A program made the translations under genes and the position numbers. Of a stretch of DNA of 64,000 nt, positions 18,215 through 48,723 are shown piece by piece (position 1 is the first letter of the stretch; each line of letters begins with the position of its first letter). Under the pieces are notes generated by a model that saw only the letters and a list, made by a program, of their open reading frames with translations, had not been told where the DNA came from and ran no database searches. This DNA comes from Cytobacillus firmus (GTDB taxonomy: Bacteria; Bacillota; Bacilli; Bacillales; Cytobacillaceae), in NCBI RefSeq assembly GCF_023657595.1, contig NZ_CP098323.1:3434001-3498000 (forward strand), in the 5' to 3' direction.

Positions 18215-18387
18215 ACATTAGCTCATATATCAGTTCATCCCTCTGTCCCGGTCCATTTTTCGGATCTAGGCAGATATATTATATTTGCGTTTCCTTAAGA
18301 AAGGTGCAGTTCTGTTAAGGATACTGCCCATAAAAAGTATATCAAAAAGGCAATTGAGTTGGCTATAAAAAATTTCAGGCCGGCATT

Positions 18388-33804: not shown

Positions 33805-35097
33805 TCAATCTGAAATAAGGCTATCTAAATGATCAAAAAACGACGGATAGGATACAGAGATCGCTTCTTCCTGCTGAAGGTGAACTTCGCCTTTTGAAAT
33901 AGCAGCAGCTATTGCCAGCATCATGCCGATGCGATGGTCTCCATGACTTGAGACAGTTCCACCTGAAAGAGATGATTTCCCCCTGATAACCATCCCATCT
34001 TCTGTAGCAGTAATCACGGCTCCAAGCTTTGAAAGTTCATTGACAACCGTATCAATGCGATTCGTTTCCTTCACCTTAAGTTCCTCTGCATCCTTAATTA
34101 CTGTTTCTCCCTCTGCTTGTGTTGCGAGCAGGGCAATAATTGGAATTTCATCGATAAGCCGGGGAATGAGCGCCCCTTCGATAACTGTTCCTTTAAGTTT
34201 AGAAGTCCTGATGGTAATATCCCCTGCAGGCTCAGCTGATCCATTTTCATACGGCTCAATACTGAAATCTGCACCCATCTGCTGCAGCACTTCAAGGATG
34301 CCGGTTCTTGTAGGATTCAGTCCAACGTTTTTCAAAGTAATTTCACTATTAGGCACAATGGCTCCTGCAGCCAGAAAGAAGGCAGCAGAGGAGATGTCAC
34401 CGGGAACATGAATTTCTGTCCCTGTCAGTGTTTGGCCTCCCTTAATCCGAATGGTTTGCCCATCTGCTGCAACTTCCCCGCCAAATTGTGTGATCATTCT
34501 TTCAGTATGATCACGTGTCTTCACAGGTTCAATAATGACTGTTTCGCCGCTTGCCTGCAGGCCGGCAAAGAGCAGTGCTGATTTAACCTGTGCACTCGCG
34601 ACAGGAAGCTCATATGTTACTCCACACAAGGGGCCGCCAATGACTGATAAGGGGGTGAATTCTCCATTCTTCCTGCCATGAATCTTTGCACCAAATAAAC
34701 TTAGTGGCGCGGTCACTCTTGTCATCGGCCTTTTTGCGATGGATTCATCTCCTACAAGGACTGAATGGAACGGACGGCCAGCCAGAATCCCCATCATAAG
34801 ACGTATCGTCGTACCTGAATTCCCAACATCCAGAATATCAGCCGGTTCCTGTAATCCATCCATTCCCCGCCCCATAATGATAACTTTATTGCCTTCCTGC
34901 TCAATAGTTACTCCGAGCTTGCGGAAGCAGGCTATCGTACTAAGGCAGTCCTCTCCGGGCAGAAAATTAGTTACAGCAGTCTTCCCCTTTGCAATAGACC
35001 CAAACATGACAGAACGATGTGATATGGATTTATCACCGGGTATCGCTATTTCTCCGCTTAAACCTTTGACATTTGACTTCAATTTTGCCAGTTTCAT
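33805..35097 (-). CDS. aroA: 3-phosphoshikimate 1-carboxyvinyltransferase (EPSP synthase)
   Basis: Sixth step of the shikimate pathway, joining PEP to shikimate 3-phosphate. The 430-residue protein has [18 protein letters not shown] (PEP/substrate lysine and Ser-Arg) near the N-terminus and [15 protein letters not shown] (about 93-107), the latter in the class II pattern. Called aroE in B. subtilis. GGGTGATGATAG precedes the ATG. Follows tyrA after 35 bp. Confidence 0.95.
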
Positions 35098-35132: not shown

Positions 35133-36239
35133 CTATAGACCGATGGTTGTTTCATAGCTTGTATACTGTTCCAGGCAATTGATTGCCCGATCCCTGTCCT
35201 CTTCCGTTTGAAAGCTTATAACCAGAACTCCATAAATTTCTTCTCTTGTCTCCAGGATTCGAATATTCGTTATGCTGATTTCTTCCTTTGCCAAATATCC
35301 AGTGATTTCTGAAATGACACCAGGGTAGTCCGGTACATCCACGAACAGATCATAAAATGCCGGAATTGCCCCTTTTTCTTTTTGCGGCAGTTCATCCCTG
35401 AACATTTTTGCATGGGAAAAATATTCAAATATACCCTCGCTGTTTTCCTGTCTGAGGATTGATTTTACTAACTCCATTTCTCCCTGCCAATCCTCCATTA
35501 ACTTAAGCAGCACTTCTTTATTCTGAAGAAGAATATCCCTCCACATAGCGGGGCTGCTGGAGGCAATCCTGGTAATATCCCTAAAGCCTCCAGCTGCCAG
35601 TCTTGGAATCAGCTTGTGCGAACGGCTTGTTTTTTCTGCCTGATGGACAAGGGAAGCAGCTATCATATGCGGAAAATGGCTGACGATCCCGGTTATATAA
35701 TCATGTTCATCGGGAGCTATGGTAAGAAATTTCGCTTTTGTTCCTGATAGCCATTCTTTTAACCTTTCAACTTCTGCCGGAGCAATATGCTCTTCAGGAG
35801 TGAGCAGATAAAAGGCATTCTCAAAAAGCAAATCTTTTGCTGCAGTGACACCGCTCTTATGGGAGCCAGCCATTGGATGCCCTCCGATAAAAGTAATTCC
35901 TTTTTCCTTTAGCACCTTTGCGCAGCTGACAATTTCTTTTTTCGTGCTGCCTGCATCCGAAATGATGACGCTGTTTTTCAATTCACACTCTTTTAAAATA
36001 TGTATAATTTTTTGAGTCTCCTGTACAGGTGCAGCTATTAAAATCAAATCTGCGTCCCTTGCCCCATCTTTAATAGTAGCAGAAATTTCGTCTGCGACCC
36101 CAAGCATTTGGGCAAGGCGCCCCTGCTCTTTATTTACATCAAAGCCGATGATCATGCTTTCGCTATGTTTTCTTTTTATTGATAGGGCCAAAGAACCTCC
36201 GATCAAACCAAGGCCAATAATAAAGATCTTCCCTCTCAT
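35133..36239 (-). CDS. tyrA: Prephenate dehydrogenase with ACT domain
   Basis: NAD-dependent oxidative decarboxylation of prephenate to 4-hydroxyphenylpyruvate for tyrosine. The dinucleotide fold starts IIGLGLIGGSLA; GGHPMAGSHKSG and the catalytic His region follow. Residues about 298-368 form an ACT domain (DVPDYPGVISEITGYL), likely the tyrosine-feedback site. It lies downstream of hisC but is separated from it by a strong hairpin terminator. Confidence 0.95.
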   Translation of the reverse strand: MRGKIFIIGLGLIGGSLALSIKRKHSESMIIGFDVNKEQGRLAQMLGVADEISATIKDGARDADLILIAAPVQETQKIIHILKECELKNSVIISDAGSTKKEIVSCAKVLKEKGITFIGGHPMAGSHKSGVTAAKDLLFENAFYLLTPEEHIAPAEVERLKEWLSGTKAKFLTIAPDEHDYITGIVSHFPHMIAASLVHQAEKTSRSHKLIPRLAAGGFRDITRIASSSPAMWRDILLQNKEVLLKLMEDWQGEMELVKSILRQENSEGIFEYFSHAKMFRDELPQKEKGAIPAFYDLFVDVPDYPGVISEITGYLAKEEISITNIRILETREEIYGVLVISFQTEEDRDRAINCLEQYTSYETTIGL

Positions 36240-36335: not shown

Positions 36336-37436
36336 CTACAATGCTGCAGCCTGCTTTGCAAGATATTGACCCATTGCGGCAAGTACACCATCATTCTGTT
36401 CCTTAGAACCTACCGTTACACGGACATAGCCCTGGAAGCCAAGTGCCTTGCCGGACCGGACGATATACCCTTTTTCAAGTAAAAATTGAAACACCTCATC
36501 TGAATCGGCATTAAAATTGATTAATATGAAATTTCCTTGTGAAGGGTAATAACCCAGTCCATGCTCTTCACAGAAAGCATAGAATTGTTCGAGCCCTTCG
36601 CGATTTTTCCGTCTGCACTCTTCAATGAAATTCTGATCTCCTATGGCTGCAGCAGCGGCAGCCTGAGCAAACTTATTTACATTAAATGGCTCTCTTACCG
36701 GTTCGAGGGCTTTGATTGTTTGAGGATTTGCAATTCCATAGCCTACTCGAAGGCTTGCTAAGCCATAAATTTTCGAGAATGTACGCAGGACAATCAAATT
36801 TTCGTAATTCCTGATTAAATCCAATGTATTGCAGTAATCCTCTGCTGTAACATATTCATAATAAGCTTCATCAAGGACAACCAATACATCTTGAGGCACC
36901 TTTTTCAGGAATGAAAGCAATGCAGACTCATTAATATAGTTCCCTGTCGGATTGTTTGGACTGCACACCCAAACTACAGCTGTTTTTTCATCAATGGCAG
37001 CCAGCATTCCATCAAGATCATGCTCTCCTTCAACCAGTGGAATTTCCCTGATTTCCGCACCTTCTACCACAGCATTATGCCTATATTGCGGAAATGTAGG
37101 CGCCGCCATAACAGTATTGGTTTCCGGACTTAATAAAGCTCTGGAAATCATTTGAATAATTTCATCCGAGCCATTGCCAAAAATCAGCTGATCTTCCTGT
37201 ATGCTTAAGTGCCCAGCCAAAACCGACCTCAGCTCAGAAGCATAACCATCGGGATACAGGGCAAAAAATGATGGCGACTGATTCATCGTAAAAAGAACTT
37301 TTTCAGAGCATCCAAAAGGATTCTCATTTGAAGCAAGCTTAACTATTTGATTCAGTCCATATTCCTTTTTTACTTGATCAATTGATTTTCCCGGCTGGTA
37401 AGGAGTTAAATTCAACAGCTGTTCCTTCCATTTCAT
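36336..37436 (-). CDS. hisC: Histidinol-phosphate aminotransferase (also aromatic)
   Basis: PLP-dependent class II aminotransferase of 366 residues serving histidine synthesis; in Bacillus the same enzyme also transaminates aromatic keto acids, which explains its place in the aro cluster. Visible features: NENPFGCS, the NPTGNY motif, DEAYYEY and the PLP lysine in [26 protein letters not shown] precedes the ATG. In B. subtilis trpA would lie just upstream; here aroH does. Confidence 0.94.
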
Positions 37437-37514
37437 TCAAATCCACCTCTTTTTTTATCACTTTCACTAATTATCGTATTAAAGCGTTGTTGATCTGCTC
37501 CTATATTATCACAA

Positions 37515-37535
37515 AACTCTCCATTAAGGAGAGTT
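37515..37535 (-). terminator. Hairpin overlapping the end of aroH
   Basis: AACTCTCC pairs with GGAGAGTT around a five-base loop, and TTTTGTG follows on the minus strand. It includes the aroH stop codon and lies in the 87-bp gap where the trp operon is missing. Confidence 0.6.
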
Positions 37536-37898
37536 CGTGGTATTTAGATCTGGCCGAAGCTTGATGGCTCCACGCAAATAAATATGGCGGATATTCTGCT
37601 GAGGTGCGTCTGTATTCACATGCATCATTACCCGGATACAATTAGGGAGTGACCCTTCAACAGGTATTTCGCTCATGCACATAACAGGAACATATTTCCA
37701 TCCCTCAATTGAACGCATTGCCTTTGCAGGAAAGGCTGCTGTTAATTCTTCCGTAACGGATATAAAGACAGAAGCTACATCCTCAGATACAATATTATTC
37801 TCCTGAATCATTTGCCTGATCACCAGCTCAGTCGCTTCTAATATCTCAGCTTCACAATTCTTATCTACGGTGACGGCTCCCCTCACCCCTCGAATCAC
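37524..37898 (-). CDS. aroH: Chorismate mutase (AroH type)
   Basis: Monofunctional chorismate mutase of the trimeric AroH fold, converting chorismate to prephenate for Phe and Tyr. The 124 residues show VIRGVRGAVTV, FPAKAMRSIEGWKYVPVMCM and NCIRVMMHVNTD, with the active-site arginines. The start is GTG 37898, with GGGAGG 8 bases upstream; GTG 37907 overlaps that site. It lies between the structured region after aroB and hisC. Confidence 0.93.
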   Translation of the reverse strand: MIRGVRGAVTVDKNCEAEILEATELVIRQMIQENNIVSEDVASVFISVTEELTAAFPAKAMRSIEGWKYVPVMCMSEIPVEGSLPNCIRVMMHVNTDAPQQNIRHIYLRGAIKLRPDLNTTNSP

Positions 37899-37946
37899 TT
37901 GCAGCACCTCCCATAGCTGTTTTGTCAGCCTTTTTATCGCAGTCTA

Positions 37947-38139
37947 ACGGGCAGTAAGACCCCCACTTCAATACTCAGAGGAATCAAAGGAGGATAAGCG
38001 GGGATCAAACTGCCCGTAAAGGCCCGAAAAGAAGAACAAAGACTAAGAACGCCACATCCTGTGGCAACGTCTTTGTGACCCACTTTCCGTGGGCCTCAAC
38101 TAACAATCAGTGGGGGATAAGGAACCCCCCCACTGATTG
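37947..38139. other. Highly structured intergenic element between aroB and aroH
   Basis: Four nested or successive stems: (A) ACGGGCAGT 37947-37955 with ACTGCCCGT 38009-38017, extended by GACCCCCACTT 37958-37968 with AAGCGGGGATC 37996-38006; (B) CAAAGAC 38037-38043 with GTCTTTG 38069-38075, enclosing GCCACA/TGTGGC; (C) CCCAC 38079-38083 with GTGGG 38089-38093; (D) CAATCAGTGGGGG 38104-38116 with CCCCCACTGATTG 38127-38139. No T-run marks it as a simple terminator and no reading frame explains it. It could be a structured RNA or a mobile palindromic repeat. Confidence 0.75.
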
Positions 38140-38176: not shown

Positions 38177-39253
38177 TTATTTTGTAAAAAGAGCAAGCTC
38201 CCGCAAAATCATGTCATCAGAAACCTGATATATGACAGGCTTACCCACTTCCTCTAAAAGAACAAAGCGAACATTCTGGCCTTCTGATTTTTTATCCTGC
38301 TTCATCCGCTCAAGCAGTTTTGAATGTGATAAATCTTCAGGGAGATCTGTTTTGTAGCCAAGCTGATCAAGCCAGAGCTTGAACTCGTTAACATCAAAGC
38401 TAACATCCAGCAGTGTTTTACTTAATTGAAGTGCGAATAACATTCCGACTGCAACAGATTCGCCATGTGTCCATTCTCCATAGCCTTTCTCCGCTTCAAT
38501 TGCATGGCCCAGGGTATGGCCGAAATTCAGAAATGCCCGAACGCCGGCTTCCTTTTCATCCTCTGCAACGATCCTGCCTTTGATCTCTATTCCCTTTGTA
38601 AGCATCCTGCTTAATACATCAGAGGGGAGGTTCTCAAGGGTAAGGATGTTGTTTTTAAGGTTCAGGTAAAAGTTCATATCATCTATCAGGCTATGCTTTA
38701 TGACTTCTGCAAACCCTGAGCGCAGCTCTTTTTGAGGCAGTGAGTCAAGAAACGCCAGGTCATAAAATACTGCCTGGGGCTGGTAAAAAGACCCTACCAT
38801 ATTTTTTCCTGAAGGATGGTTGATGGCAACTTTTCCTCCCACAGCGCTATCATGTGCCAGGATGGTAGTTGGAATCTGAATGAAGGGTACTCCCCTCATA
38901 AATGTGGCTGCCACAAAACCTGCCAAATCTCCGACAGCTCCCCCGCCAAACGCCAGGATCAGAGATTTTCGGTCAAGTTTATGTTCCAGAGCAAATGATA
39001 AGCACTGGTAGTATACTTCAAAGGTTTTGGCTTTCTCGCCTCTTGGCACTGTACAGACTTTTGGCTCCATCCCCTTAAGTGCCGCTTCCAGCTCTGGCAG
39101 ATGTAAGTCCCTAACTGTTTCATCCGTAATGATCATTACATTCGTCAAGGCTGGAAAAGTATCTTTAATATATGATCCCAATCCTTCAATTGCTCCGGTC
39201 CCTATATAAACCGGATAGGCCCTGTCGGGTGTTTTGATTAAAATCCTTTTCAT
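38177..39253 (-). CDS. aroB: 3-dehydroquinate synthase
   Basis: Second shikimate-pathway step, NAD- and metal-dependent cyclisation of DAHP. The 358 residues show FGGGAVGDLAGFVAATFMRG (NAD site), the metal-binding E/H set including FNFGHTLGHAIE, and HGESVAVGM. The ATG overlaps the aroC stop by one base (TAATG), implying coupling. The roughly 280-bp region after it holds the structured element. Confidence 0.95.
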   Translation of the reverse strand: MKRILIKTPDRAYPVYIGTGAIEGLGSYIKDTFPALTNVMIITDETVRDLHLPELEAALKGMEPKVCTVPRGEKAKTFEVYYQCLSFALEHKLDRKSLILAFGGGAVGDLAGFVAATFMRGVPFIQIPTTILAHDSAVGGKVAINHPSGKNMVGSFYQPQAVFYDLAFLDSLPQKELRSGFAEVIKHSLIDDMNFYLNLKNNILTLENLPSDVLSRMLTKGIEIKGRIVAEDEKEAGVRAFLNFGHTLGHAIEAEKGYGEWTHGESVAVGMLFALQLSKTLLDVSFDVNEFKLWLDQLGYKTDLPEDLSHSKLLERMKQDKKSEGQNVRFVLLEEVGKPVIYQVSDDMILRELALFTK

Positions 39254-40425
39254 TAAAACTCCCTCGCAAATTGCCTTTGCTGTTCAACCGATGCTTTTAA
39301 TGTCTCAAACCGGTCAGAATAGAACTGGTCTACAATGGCAGAAGCCAGTTCCCAGGCAATTACATTTTCTGCAACGACTGCAGCTGCCGGCACTGCACAG
39401 CTGTCAGAACGCTCTATGCTTGCTGAGAAAGGTTCCTTTGTTTCAATATCGACACTTTGCAGCGGTTTATAGAGAGTCGGTATTGGCTTCATTACTCCTC
39501 TGATGACGATTGGCATTCCCGTTGACATGCCCCCTTCTAAGCCGCCAAGACGGTTCGTTTTCCGATAATAGCCCTTATCCGGGTCCCATGCGATTTCATC
39601 ATGAACTTCACTTCCAGGCTTCCTTGCAGCCTCGAAACCTATGCCAAACTCCACACCTTTAAAAGCATTAATGCTCACCATTGCACCTGCAAGCTTCGAA
39701 TCAAGCTTTCGGTCATAGTGTACATAACTTCCAACTCCCGGCGGCATTCCTTCAACAATAACCTCCACTACTCCGCCAATGGAATCGCCATTTTCCTTAG
39801 CGGAATCAATCGCAGCCATCATTTTTTGGGCGGCAGCCTGATCCTGACAGCGAACAGGCGATTCTTCTGTAATTTCCTTTAACTCCTTAAGTGAAGAATA
39901 ATCTCTTTGGCCTGAAACAACACCGCCAATTTCAATAACATGTGCTGCAACCTCAATTCCTAGCTGAGAAAGCAGTTTTTTTGCAGCTGCACCGGCAGCC
40001 ACTCTTACTGTGGTTTCTCTGGCTGAAGAACGCTCCAAAACATTTCTCATATCCCTGTGTCCATATTTTAGGGCTCCATTTAAATCAGCATGGCCTGGGC
40101 GAGGACGGGAAATTTTTCTTTTCACTTCTGCCTCATCCTCAGCATTAAGAGGATCCTGGCCCATAATTTTTGTCCAGTGCTTCCAATCATTATTCTCTAC
40201 AACGAGCGCTACCGGGGATCCCAGTGTGTATCCATGCCTGATCCCCGCTGTTATTTGAACAGTATCTTTTTCAATTTGCATCCTTCTGCCTCTGCCATAA
40301 CCTTTCTGGCGTCTGGCAAGCTCTTCGTTTATATCTGAATCTACGAGCGGCATTCCTGCTGGCAGCCCTTCTATTATAGTGGTCAGCTGCGGTCCGTGAG
40401 ATTCACCAGATGTAAGATATCTCAA
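39253..40425 (-). CDS. aroC: Chorismate synthase
   Basis: FMN-dependent last step of the shikimate pathway. The protein is 390 residues, the same as B. subtilis AroF. Signatures: GESHGPQLT at the N-terminus, [34 protein letters not shown] and the C-terminal KPIPTL...[17 protein letters not shown]. The start is TTG 40425 with GGGGGAAAG upstream; the longer frame from 40443 overlaps that site. First gene of aroC-aroB; cheR lies upstream. Confidence 0.95.
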
Positions 40426-40585
40426 AACTCTTTCCCCCTTCAACTCATTAAAGGATTATGTATCAATATAACATAATGATAAATATAAGAATAGATAAAA
40501 TTGAAAATTCCTATAATATTTTATTTCTTCTTATGAATGGAGCCATTTTAACACGAATAGTTATTTACTACCAAACAAAAAAAGA

Positions 40586-44976: not shown

Positions 44977-45213
44977 CTATTTCTTAGCCTCACTTTCGAG
45001 TTCTCCATAGCTGGTCATGATCCTGGCATTCCCCCTGATCTTAATCGCAGAAGTATGCTCAGTAAATTGCGCAATCATGACTTCTCCCTGGTCAAGTTTT
45101 TCTGAATGGTGGAATCTTGTATCAGATCCTCTTGTTAACCCTATAACATTAACACCGTCTTCTTTTGCTTTAATCACAATATAATCGTTTCCTGATGGAT
45201 TTTTCTTTTCCAT
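44977..45213 (-). CDS. mtrB: Tryptophan RNA-binding attenuation protein (TRAP)
   Basis: 78-residue subunit of the 11-mer ring that, when loaded with tryptophan, binds GAG/UAG repeats in trp leader RNA. The sequence ([52 protein letters not shown]) matches B. subtilis MtrB closely, with the Trp-pocket Thr and Ser and the KKR-type RNA face recognisable. AAAGGATGG precedes the ATG. It follows folE as in B. subtilis but after a terminator. The trp operon it normally controls is not in this window. Confidence 0.95.
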
Positions 45214-45333: not shown

Positions 45334-45900
45334 TTATTGTTTTATCAGTGAAAGGACTTCTGCACGTGCTCTTGCATCCTCTGCAAATACGCCTCTTACT
45401 GCTGATGTCACCGTTTTTGAACCAGGCTTTTTAACTCCGCGCATTGTCATGCACATATGCTCTGCTTCCACAACAACCATCACACCATGCGGCTCAAGCT
45501 TTTCCAGGATCGAATTTGCTACAGTAGATGTAATGCGTTCCTGAAGCTGAGGACGCTTCGCAACTGCCTCTACAGCTCTGGCGAGTTTGCTTAAACCTGT
45601 TACTCTGCCATTCCGCGGGATGTAAGCTACATGCGCAACACCAAAGAAAGGCACAAGATGATGTTCACACATAGAATAGAACGGAATATCTTTAACCAAA
45701 ACAAGTTCCTCATGGTCTTCGCCAAATACTGTTTCAAAGTATTCTTTAGGATCCTGGTTCAGTCCCATAAAAACTTCTTCATACATTTTAGCGACCCGCT
45801 TTGGTGTATCAAGAAGTCCTTCCCGATTTGGATCTTCACCGATTGCTTCCAATATTAAACGCACCGCATCTTCGATCTGGGCACGATTTACCTCTGCCAT
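45334..45900 (-). CDS. folE: GTP cyclohydrolase I
   Basis: First step of tetrahydrofolate synthesis, converting GTP to dihydroneopterin triphosphate. The 188 residues hold the zinc site in [13 protein letters not shown] and the later Cys in [15 protein letters not shown], plus [23 protein letters not shown]. Also called mtrA in B. subtilis because of its operon with mtrB. ATAGGAGG precedes the ATG, and a promoter is visible upstream. Confidence 0.96.
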
Positions 45901-46121: not shown

Positions 46122-46394
46122 TTATTTAACTGCATCTTTAAGCGCTTTGCCTGGTTTGAAAGCAGGAACTTTGCTTGCAGCGATTTCGATTTCTTCGCCA
46201 GTTTGCGGGTTGCGTCCTTTGCGGGCAGCACGTTCGCGAACTTCAAAGTTTCCGAAACCGATTAGTTGTACCTTATCACCATTTTTCAAAGCATCAAGGA
46301 TTGTATCGAAAACAGCATCAACTGCTTTAGTCGCGTCTTTTTTAGAAAGTTCGCCAGCCTCAGCAACTGCGTTAATTAGTTCTGTTTTGTTCAT
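46122..46394 (-). CDS. hbs: DNA-binding protein HU
   Basis: Nucleoid protein of 90 residues that bends and compacts DNA as a dimer. The sequence [21 protein letters not shown] and the arm region [25 protein letters not shown] are canonical. ATG 46394 follows GGAGGAGGTG; the frame extends further but without a site. The gene has two recognisable promoters and a leader of over 100 bases. Confidence 0.97.
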
Positions 46395-46512
46395 GCCTTT
46401 CACCTCCTCCCAAATATGGATAAAACCCAGTAAAATAAGATTCCTTACATACATTTGTAAACAAAATTACTGAATTCTATACGTTATGGCGTGTTTTTGT
46501 TTAACAAGCCTT

Positions 46513-46771: not shown

Positions 46772-47213
46772 GGTCTGGGTTCTGACTTTGAACATTGGAT
46801 TTTAGCTTTTTGTGTCCGAAGTTGGCCCAGGTTCTGACTCTGGGCACTGGATTTTCTCCTCCCGTGTCCGAAGTTGCCACAGGTTCTGACTCTGAGCACT
46901 GGATTTTCTCCTCCTCTGTCCGAAGTTGCCACAGGTTCTGACTCTGAGCACTGGATTTTCTCCTCCTCTGTCCGAAGTTGCCACGGGTTCTGACTTTGGG
47001 CACTGGATTTTCTCCTTCTGTGTCCGAAGTTGCCACGGGTTCTGACTCTGGGCACTGGATTTTCTCCTTCTGTGTCCGAAGTTGCCACGGGTTCTGACTC
47101 TGGGCACTGGATTTTCTCCTTCTGTGTCCGAAGTTGACACAGGTTCTGACTCTGGGCACTGGATTTTCTCCTCCTGTGTCCGAAGTTAGCCCGGTTCCGG
47201 CTCATTTCGCCGG
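46772..47213. repeat. 52-bp tandem repeat array between hbs and spoIVA
   Basis: Seven complete units start at 46814, 46866, 46918, 46970, 47022, 47074 and 47126, with partial degenerate units at each end. The unit contains the blocks GTCCGAAGTT, GGTTCTGACTCTG and CACTGGATTTTCTCC; variation is concentrated at a few positions. Because 52 is not a multiple of three, all three minus-strand frames stay open and cycle through the same three peptides, so the long frames are a by-product. There are no spacers, so this is not a CRISPR. The function is unknown. Confidence 0.95.
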
Positions 47214-47244: not shown

Positions 47245-48723
47245 TTAAAGGATTATCGCAATTAATCCGCCAGAGCCTTCGTTGATGATTCTTTCTAAAG
47301 TCTCTTTGAGCTTATATCTTGCATTTTCAGGCATTAGTGACAATTTTGCCTGGATTCCTTCTCTTACGATGGAGCTGAGGCTGCGTCCAAAGATGTCGGA
47401 GTTCCAGATTGAAAGCGGATCATCTTCAAAGTCCTGCATCAGGTACCGGACGAGTTCTTCGCTTTGCTTTTCTGTTCCGATGATAGGAGAGAACTCAGAT
47501 TCCACATCTACTTTAATCATATGAATGGATGGAGCAACAGCCTTAAGCCTTACACCAAAGCGTGATCCATGGCGTGTAATTTCCGGTTCATCGAGGCTCA
47601 TATCAGCCAGTGAAGGGGCTGCAATGCCGTAGCCGGTTTGCTTCACCATTCTCAGCGCATCGGAAATTTGGTCATACTCTGCTTTAGCATGGGCAAATTC
47701 CTGCATCAGCTCGAGCAAGTGGTCTTTTCCGCGGATTTCAACGCCCACTATCTCTTTAAGAACCTCATCGTAAAGATCGTCCGGCGCATATAAGTCAATT
47801 TCGGCTACTCCCTGCCCCATCTCAATTCCTGCAAGGCCTGCCCGGTCAATGAATTCAAAGTCGCTGAACTGATGGACCACACGGTCAACATCTCTTAGCC
47901 TCTTAATATCCTTAACCGTTTCTTTAACTGCTTCCTGATAGCTTTCACGAAGCCAGTGATCTTCATGCAGCACCATAACCCAGCTTGGAAGATTTACATT
48001 CACTTCCAATACCGGGAACTCATAAAGAGCTTCACGCATAACATTTAATACATCTGATTCTCTCATGCCCTCTACGCTCATAGCCAGGACAGGGATATCA
48101 TATTTTTCAGCAAGATCATTTCTGAGGGCATCCGTATTTGGGTGGTGAGGCTGGACGCTGTTTATGATCATGATAAACGGCTTGCCAACTTCCTTTAACT
48201 CCTCAATAACTCTTTCTTCAGCCTCAATATAGTTTGCACGCGGTATTTCCCCAATTGTTCCGTCTGTTGTAATCACCACTCCGATTGTGGAATGCTCCTG
48301 AATCACCTTTCTTGTTCCTATTTCAGCAGCTTCGTGAAAAGGAATCGGCTCTTCATACCATGGTGTATTGATCATTCTCGGGCCGTTTTCGTCTTCATAG
48401 CCCTTCGCCCCCGGTACTGTATATCCCACACAATCCACAAGCCTGATATTTACATTCAGCCCTTCTGCTACATGAACTGTAGCAGCCTGGTTAGGAACAA
48501 ATTTCGGTTCTGTGGTCATAATTGTTTTGCCGGCAGCACTTTGCGGAAGCTCATCCTGTGTGCGGGCACGTTCTGCTTCGTTCTCCATATTTGGCAGTAC
48601 AACCAATTCCATGAACTTTTTTATAAATGTAGATTTGCCGGTGCGAACTGCGCCAACTACTCCGAAATATATATCGCCGCCAGTTCTTTCGGCAATATCT
48701 TTAAAAATATCAACCTTTTCCAA
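47245..48723 (-). CDS. spoIVA: Stage IV sporulation protein A (spore coat ATPase)
   Basis: Mother-cell ATPase that polymerises on the forespore surface to form the coat basement layer and anchor cortex assembly. The 492 residues show Walker A GAVRTGKST (24-32), VDCVGYTVPG and the C-terminal targeting region ending GSGGLIAIIL. The start is TTG 48723 behind AGGAGGGG. A candidate sigma-E promoter lies upstream. Confidence 0.96.
   Translation of the reverse strand: MEKVDIFKDIAERTGGDIYFGVVGAVRTGKSTFIKKFMELVVLPNMENEAERARTQDELPQSAAGKTIMTTEPKFVPNQAATVHVAEGLNVNIRLVDCVGYTVPGAKGYEDENGPRMINTPWYEEPIPFHEAAEIGTRKVIQEHSTIGVVITTDGTIGEIPRANYIEAEERVIEELKEVGKPFIMIINSVQPHHPNTDALRNDLAEKYDIPVLAMSVEGMRESDVLNVMREALYEFPVLEVNVNLPSWVMVLHEDHWLRESYQEAVKETVKDIKRLRDVDRVVHQFSDFEFIDRAGLAGIEMGQGVAEIDLYAPDDLYDEVLKEIVGVEIRGKDHLLELMQEFAHAKAEYDQISDALRMVKQTGYGIAAPSLADMSLDEPEITRHGSRFGVRLKAVAPSIHMIKVDVESEFSPIIGTEKQSEELVRYLMQDFEDDPLSIWNSDIFGRSLSSIVREGIQAKLSLMPENARYKLKETLERIINEGSGGLIAIIL

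Follow-up and report, generated by a model that had tools for sequence, protein, structure and literature searches.

The window analysed here, 64,000 nucleotides (3434001-3498000) of the chromosome of the soil bacterium Cytobacillus firmus, carries on its minus strand a cluster of aromatic amino acid genes together with the gene pair folE-mtrB (Table 1). In B. subtilis, the corresponding genes are ordered aroF-aroB-aroH-trpEDCFBA-hisC-tyrA-aroE. In the window, aroH is followed after 87 bp by hisC and the interval holds no trp genes; a search of this gap for trp sequence and for a (G/U)AG array found neither. The highest (G/U)AG array score in the whole window was 4.5, given by a broken patchwork within aroH. 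The gene mtrB encodes TRAP, known from textbooks for its control of the trp operon; a TRAP ring has 11 subunits and, with tryptophan bound, attaches to (G/U)AG repeats. The mtrB product matches the solved structures 1wap, 1c9s and 3zte at E values of 1e-32 to 1e-34, and folE lies directly upstream. The products of aroH, hisC, tyrA, aroB, folE and mtrB all scored above the curated NCBIfam cut-offs. The original prediction of a normal TRAP gene in a region whose aroH-hisC junction shows neither trp genes nor a TRAP-binding array was correct as a description.

Table 1. Features of the window, with the model or observation on which each assignment is based.
Feature	Position in window	Strand	Basis
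pan motif	18239-18330	-	RF01749, 70 bits
3-phosphoshikimate 1-carboxyvinyltransferase (EPSP synthase; aroE in B. subtilis naming), end of aromatic cluster	33805..35097	-	ORF; position conserved in relatives
tyrA, prephenate dehydrogenase	35133..36239	-	NF005107, 573 bits (cut-off 414)
hisC, histidinol-phosphate transaminase	36336..37436	-	TIGR01141, 381 bits (cut-off 277)
hisC-aroH gap, 87 bp	37437..37523	-	ORFs, window sequence
aroH, monofunctional chorismate mutase	37524..37907	-	TIGR01796, 154 bits (cut-off 82)
Top-scoring (G/U)AG patchwork, within aroH	37891-37838		Array score 4.5
Bacillaceae-1 RNA element	38027-38093	+	RF01690
aroB, 3-dehydroquinate synthase	38177..39253	-	TIGR01357, 380 bits (cut-off 305)
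Chorismate synthase (aroF in B. subtilis naming)	39253..40443	-	ORF; AroC tree
mtrB, TRAP	44977..45213	-	NF009724, 144 bits (cut-off 117)
folE (mtrA), GTP cyclohydrolase I	45334..45900	-	NF006826, 310 bits (cut-off 162)
HU-like gene	46122-46454
52-bp tandem repeat	46778-47187
spoIVA-like gene	47245-48723

The aroH stop codon lies in the loop of a hairpin (ACTCTCC-TTAAT-GGAGAGT) that is followed by a short T-run, TTTTG. Conservation of this hairpin is limited to close relatives of the C. firmus type (L009, L011-L013, L016, L019, L021 and L023); it is imperfect in other members of the genus and absent further out. It had been proposed to be a scar of trp loss, an idea that we abandon because the hairpin is restricted to close relatives whereas the empty junction occurs throughout the family; the hairpin may instead be a weak terminator or an mRNA-end hairpin.

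Some other features of the window are recorded here in their own right. The gap between aroB and aroH is enlarged and contains a Bacillaceae-1 RNA element, which looks like an inserted repeat because the gap of L010 has the same size whereas those of L009, L011 and L012 are short. Extra sequence of similar look is found in the aroH-hisC gap of L014, L015 and L018. A 52-bp tandem repeat (about 7.9 copies, 93% matches) sits between a spoIVA-like and an HU-like gene, and the ORFs running through it are probably spurious. There is also a pan motif, an element expected upstream of pantothenate genes.

How old is the empty junction? Comparison with related genomes, suggested as a check of the original prediction, covered 80 TRAP-bearing relatives, 74 of them informative: aroH and hisC were adjacent in 73, at a spacing of 25-257 bp, the sole exception being Aeribacillus composti (L078), with trpE-trpD between the two genes. 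Because the genome is a single contig of 4.98 Mb and the adjacency recurs in nearly all informative relatives, the junction does not stem from an error of assembly. At the class level, sampled as the genomes having AroH (88/151), trp genes directly followed aroH in 34 of 40 AroH loci, from 19 families, and only three families (f11, f13 and f16) resembled that of C. firmus (f1) at the junction. As a resident gene against which to gauge the species tree we took that of chorismate synthase (AroC), whose C. firmus sequence is 98% identical to that of L009. In the AroC tree, the families with an empty junction form one clade (98/93), whose neighbours are f10, f12 and Aeribacillus (100/100), and the junction pattern requires no more than a single change of state. 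Since trp genes at this site are wide in the class and a single change explains their absence, the phylogeny indicates that trp between aroH and hisC is ancestral and was lost once, in common to the four families. This is the opposite of the possibility that the clade never had trp genes at this site, which had been named as the finding that would speak against a loss.

Searches of the rest of the genome with TrpA and TrpE both led to one and the same place, about 3.224-3.231 Mb (G000:C1:3216000-3234000), where a trpEGDCFBA operon without missing genes lies some 250 kb from the aroH-hisC junction, with its own trpG between trpE and trpD. The suggestion that the organism might be a tryptophan auxotroph, with the junction as the scar of a recent deletion, had drawn on the gap and its hairpin. 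With a full set of trp genes elsewhere in the genome, an adjacency found throughout the family and a hairpin confined to close relatives, it can practically be dismissed. Upstream of trpE there are two tandem T-boxes (RF00230; 132.8 and 123.8 bits, with a gathering score of 93). Both of them carry GAA-UGG-AC at the specifier position of Stem I, read by eye, UGG being the Trp codon, and UGGC in the T-box bulge, as expected for tRNA-Trp. Because of these specifiers and bulges, tryptophan synthesis, complete in gene content, is predicted to respond to tRNA-Trp in its uncharged form. Of the family's trpE loci, 20 were scanned with Rfam and all of them had tandem T-boxes, and such an arrangement before trpE is well known in Bacillota (PMC12452182). 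A TRAP array, in turn, was sought in the C. firmus trpE leader and none was found (score 1.15 in the SD region and 4.15 upstream, the background level), whereas the trpE leaders of f10, f12 and Aeribacillus, where trp is still in the aro cluster, used as positive controls, gave array scores of 9.0 to 10.25 and one of them also matched Rfam Trp_leader_2.

Is this operon the resident one at a new address? The TrpE tree conflicts with the AroC tree: it unites the four families in a single clade (100/99) and places f10, f12 and Aeribacillus elsewhere, together with f32 (100/99), the grouping expected from AroC. The TrpB tree is concordant (100/98 and 97/97). When vertical descent was forced, it was not rejected by TrpE alone (AU p=0.24), was marginally rejected by TrpB (AU p=0.041) and was clearly rejected by six concatenated Trp proteins (lnL difference 77, AU p=0.0004), the last test being run on a 24-taxon subset of a 47-row concatenation under LG+G4 without mixture. 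A relocation without replacement, in which the resident operon moved and its leader later switched from TRAP attenuation to T-boxes, would account for the identical pathway genes and the preserved D-C-F-B-A order, and the TrpE test by itself is compatible with it. We nevertheless consider it quite unlikely, given the separation in both single-protein trees, the outcome of the concatenated test and the trpG gene lying between trpE and trpD, of which the resident operons of f10 and f12 show no sign. Because the concatenated tree rejects vertical descent, the trees argue that the C. firmus trp operon is of a different lineage and not the resident operon moved. The earlier idea of a relocated operon is thus right in that trp genes lie elsewhere and wrong in that they are not the same genes. 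As to the origin of the new operon, we infer horizontal gain rather than an ancient paralogue; it may still be such a paralogue, as no donor lineage was found. The clade-level exchange would in this sense be ancient and xenologous.

Where, then, would TRAP bind? The original prediction proposed that TRAP controls trp, and perhaps folate, genes elsewhere in the genome. Neither trpE nor pabA carries an array in C. firmus, and the best one in the genome lies before trpP, the gene of the tryptophan importer. It has 7 consecutive (G/U)AG units, or 10 counting weaker ones (CAG-ga-GAG-ac-GAA-ca-GAG-ct-TAG-tca-GAG-aa-TAG-ca-GAG-ga-GAG-at-GAG, followed by aa-TTG), and as CAGgaGAGacGAAcaGAGctTAGtcaGAGaaTAGcaGAGgaGAGatGAG-aa-TTG it overlaps the SD sequence and the start codon TTG. 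The leader of trpP thus has what defines a TRAP-regulated gene by sequence, namely (G/U)AG triplets at 2-3 nt spacing over the ribosome-binding site. A genome-wide scan for four in-register units gave three matches, overlapping or separate, two of them directly before trpP, and a scan for five units with one mismatch allowed gave trpP as the sole exact match, in this genome and in a congener; both scans used a fixed 2-nt spacing, so that arrays with several 3-nt spacers could escape. The trpP array scored 7.55. The empirical background consisted of 1452 gene leaders taken at related loci; 9 loci scored at least 6, most or all of them trp leaders, and the derived p values are conservative because this background includes real trp leaders. 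Across the family, 24 of 31 trpP leaders reached p<=0.01 and all 31 were at p<0.017; conservation of the array extends over several genera. For trpP of B. subtilis, also named yhaG, it is known that TRAP keeps ribosomes from binding and so represses translation (PMC13170310; PMC11255114), and by this likeness TRAP would bind and repress trpP also in C. firmus.

Why has TRAP been kept? Among the 121 genomes of the family, TRAP was found in 106 and TrpP above the cut-off in 101. This distribution fits a TRAP whose presence tracks trpP and not trp, because all 15 TRAP-less genomes are also without TrpP and all 15 keep a trpE of the family's own type. We had expected three independent co-losses of TRAP and TrpP and the TrpE tree gives one: the 15 genomes form one group, so that this is a single co-loss, of limited weight. 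Five TRAP-bearing genomes had no TrpP match, two of them 66-80% complete assemblies. Control of tryptophan transport is probably what TRAP has been retained for, and we infer that trpP is the main reason. That TRAP is instead a relic without present function is suggested by the disappearance of its classic target, the trp leader, from the C. firmus genome. Such a reading is very hard to reconcile with a protein that is intact, highly conserved and kept in most of the family, and with a trpP array conserved beyond the genus, and we give it very little credence.

A target other than trpP could also be what mainly keeps TRAP, be it folate pabA, the ECF transporter gene ecfA or some other gene. 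Folate was rejected as a target after arrays had been sought at pabA (score 0.2) and pabB and found at neither. The second-best array of the genome covers the ribosome-binding site of a gene for an ATPase of an ECF transporter, of ecfA type (L293, G000:C1:155260-155282), and recurs before ecfA in G101; its score of 5.2 (p about 0.010) belongs to the tail of the background, and C. firmus and G101 are closely related. A match near ctaA (score 5.3), at the end of an upstream ORF, was treated as chance. Further cases come from relatives. G022, one of the five TRAP-bearing genomes of the family without a TrpP match, has a strong array of 6-7 units that overlies the start of another trpD, its second, and a trpC-like gene comes after this trpD (L286, G022:C64:3563-3595). 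In f11 (G170 and G272), TRAP is present without TrpP, the trpE leader was searched without finding an array, and no TRAP target was found. Because f11 and G022 keep TRAP without TrpP, these genomes suggest that in certain lineages TRAP has targets other than trpP. As the main reason for keeping TRAP, such a target is nonetheless unlikely, since the trpP array is the strongest and most conserved of all. Anti-TRAP was sought as well: none was found in the genus, and two weak sub-threshold matches turned up in other families.

In some relatives, the new trpE leader itself may have come under TRAP. We found (G/U)AG arrays in the trpE leaders of f16 (8/8) and f13 (1/1) and of three genera of the C. 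firmus family, at p<=0.012 or with scores of 6.6-6.95 upstream. In f16 and f13 they co-occur with a T-box in most leaders (L193 and L196-L203 were noted); L202 and L203, both from f16, are without a simple T-box motif and L202 is also without an Rfam T-box match. In L197 (2700-3300, minus strand), the T-box terminator is immediately followed by the array, which extends over the start of trpE, and in the three genera (L246; L138 and L144; L146 and L150) the arrays lie downstream of the tandem T-boxes. We see an even chance that, after the replacement, the sister families brought the new leader back under control by TRAP and so produced mRNAs with two sensors in cis. In such a leader, the T-box would read the charging of tRNA-Trp and the TRAP array, situated either across the start of trpE or on the 5′ side of the T-box, would read free tryptophan. 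B. subtilis combines these two kinds of sensing in trans through anti-TRAP; if our reading is true, one RNA would do the same in cis, and these sister families would offer a view of how two RNA-based sensors integrate. The literature searched, with the main comparative surveys of trp regulation outside its scope, yielded no description of a T-box/TRAP sensor of this kind.

Taken as a whole, we consider the following history likely, with good confidence. The common ancestor of the C. firmus family and three related families would have lost a TRAP-attenuated trpEDCFBA operon from between aroH and hisC, and a different trpEGDCFBA operon, self-sufficient and located elsewhere on the chromosome, would have taken over tryptophan synthesis, under tandem T-boxes that sense uncharged tRNA-Trp. 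TRAP would have survived through a second job, the control of the importer: the tryptophan-charged ring would bind the (G/U)AG array over the trpP ribosome-binding site and start and block translation. In consequence, tRNA charging would set synthesis and free tryptophan would set uptake. A large clade would then have swapped its trp operon for a T-box-controlled one and kept TRAP, apparently for the importer alone. Uptake control would thereby have parted from synthesis control, which lets the clade serve as a natural experiment on the TRAP target that selection acts upon.

Each part of this arrangement, the T-box and the TRAP-trpP pair, is known and ordinary, and it is the combination that informs. 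Compared with the B. subtilis aro-trp-his supraoperon, all the flanking genes are present in the same order and the trp segment is missing, by one loss common to the C. firmus family and three related families. As in the TRAP regulon of B. subtilis, an intact TRAP is encoded behind folE and a (G/U)AG array covers the trpP start; unlike there, TRAP sites are missing from tryptophan biosynthesis and from pabA and the search for anti-TRAP yielded none, so that, judged from leader sequences, the visible TRAP regulon appears reduced essentially to transport. Finally, the operon shares its gene order and the two contiguous Trp T-boxes before trpE with the tandem T-box trpEGDCFBA operons of Bacillota, such as that of B. 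methanolicus (PMC4342826), but the one in C. firmus coexists with TRAP and would have replaced a resident operon of the TRAP type.
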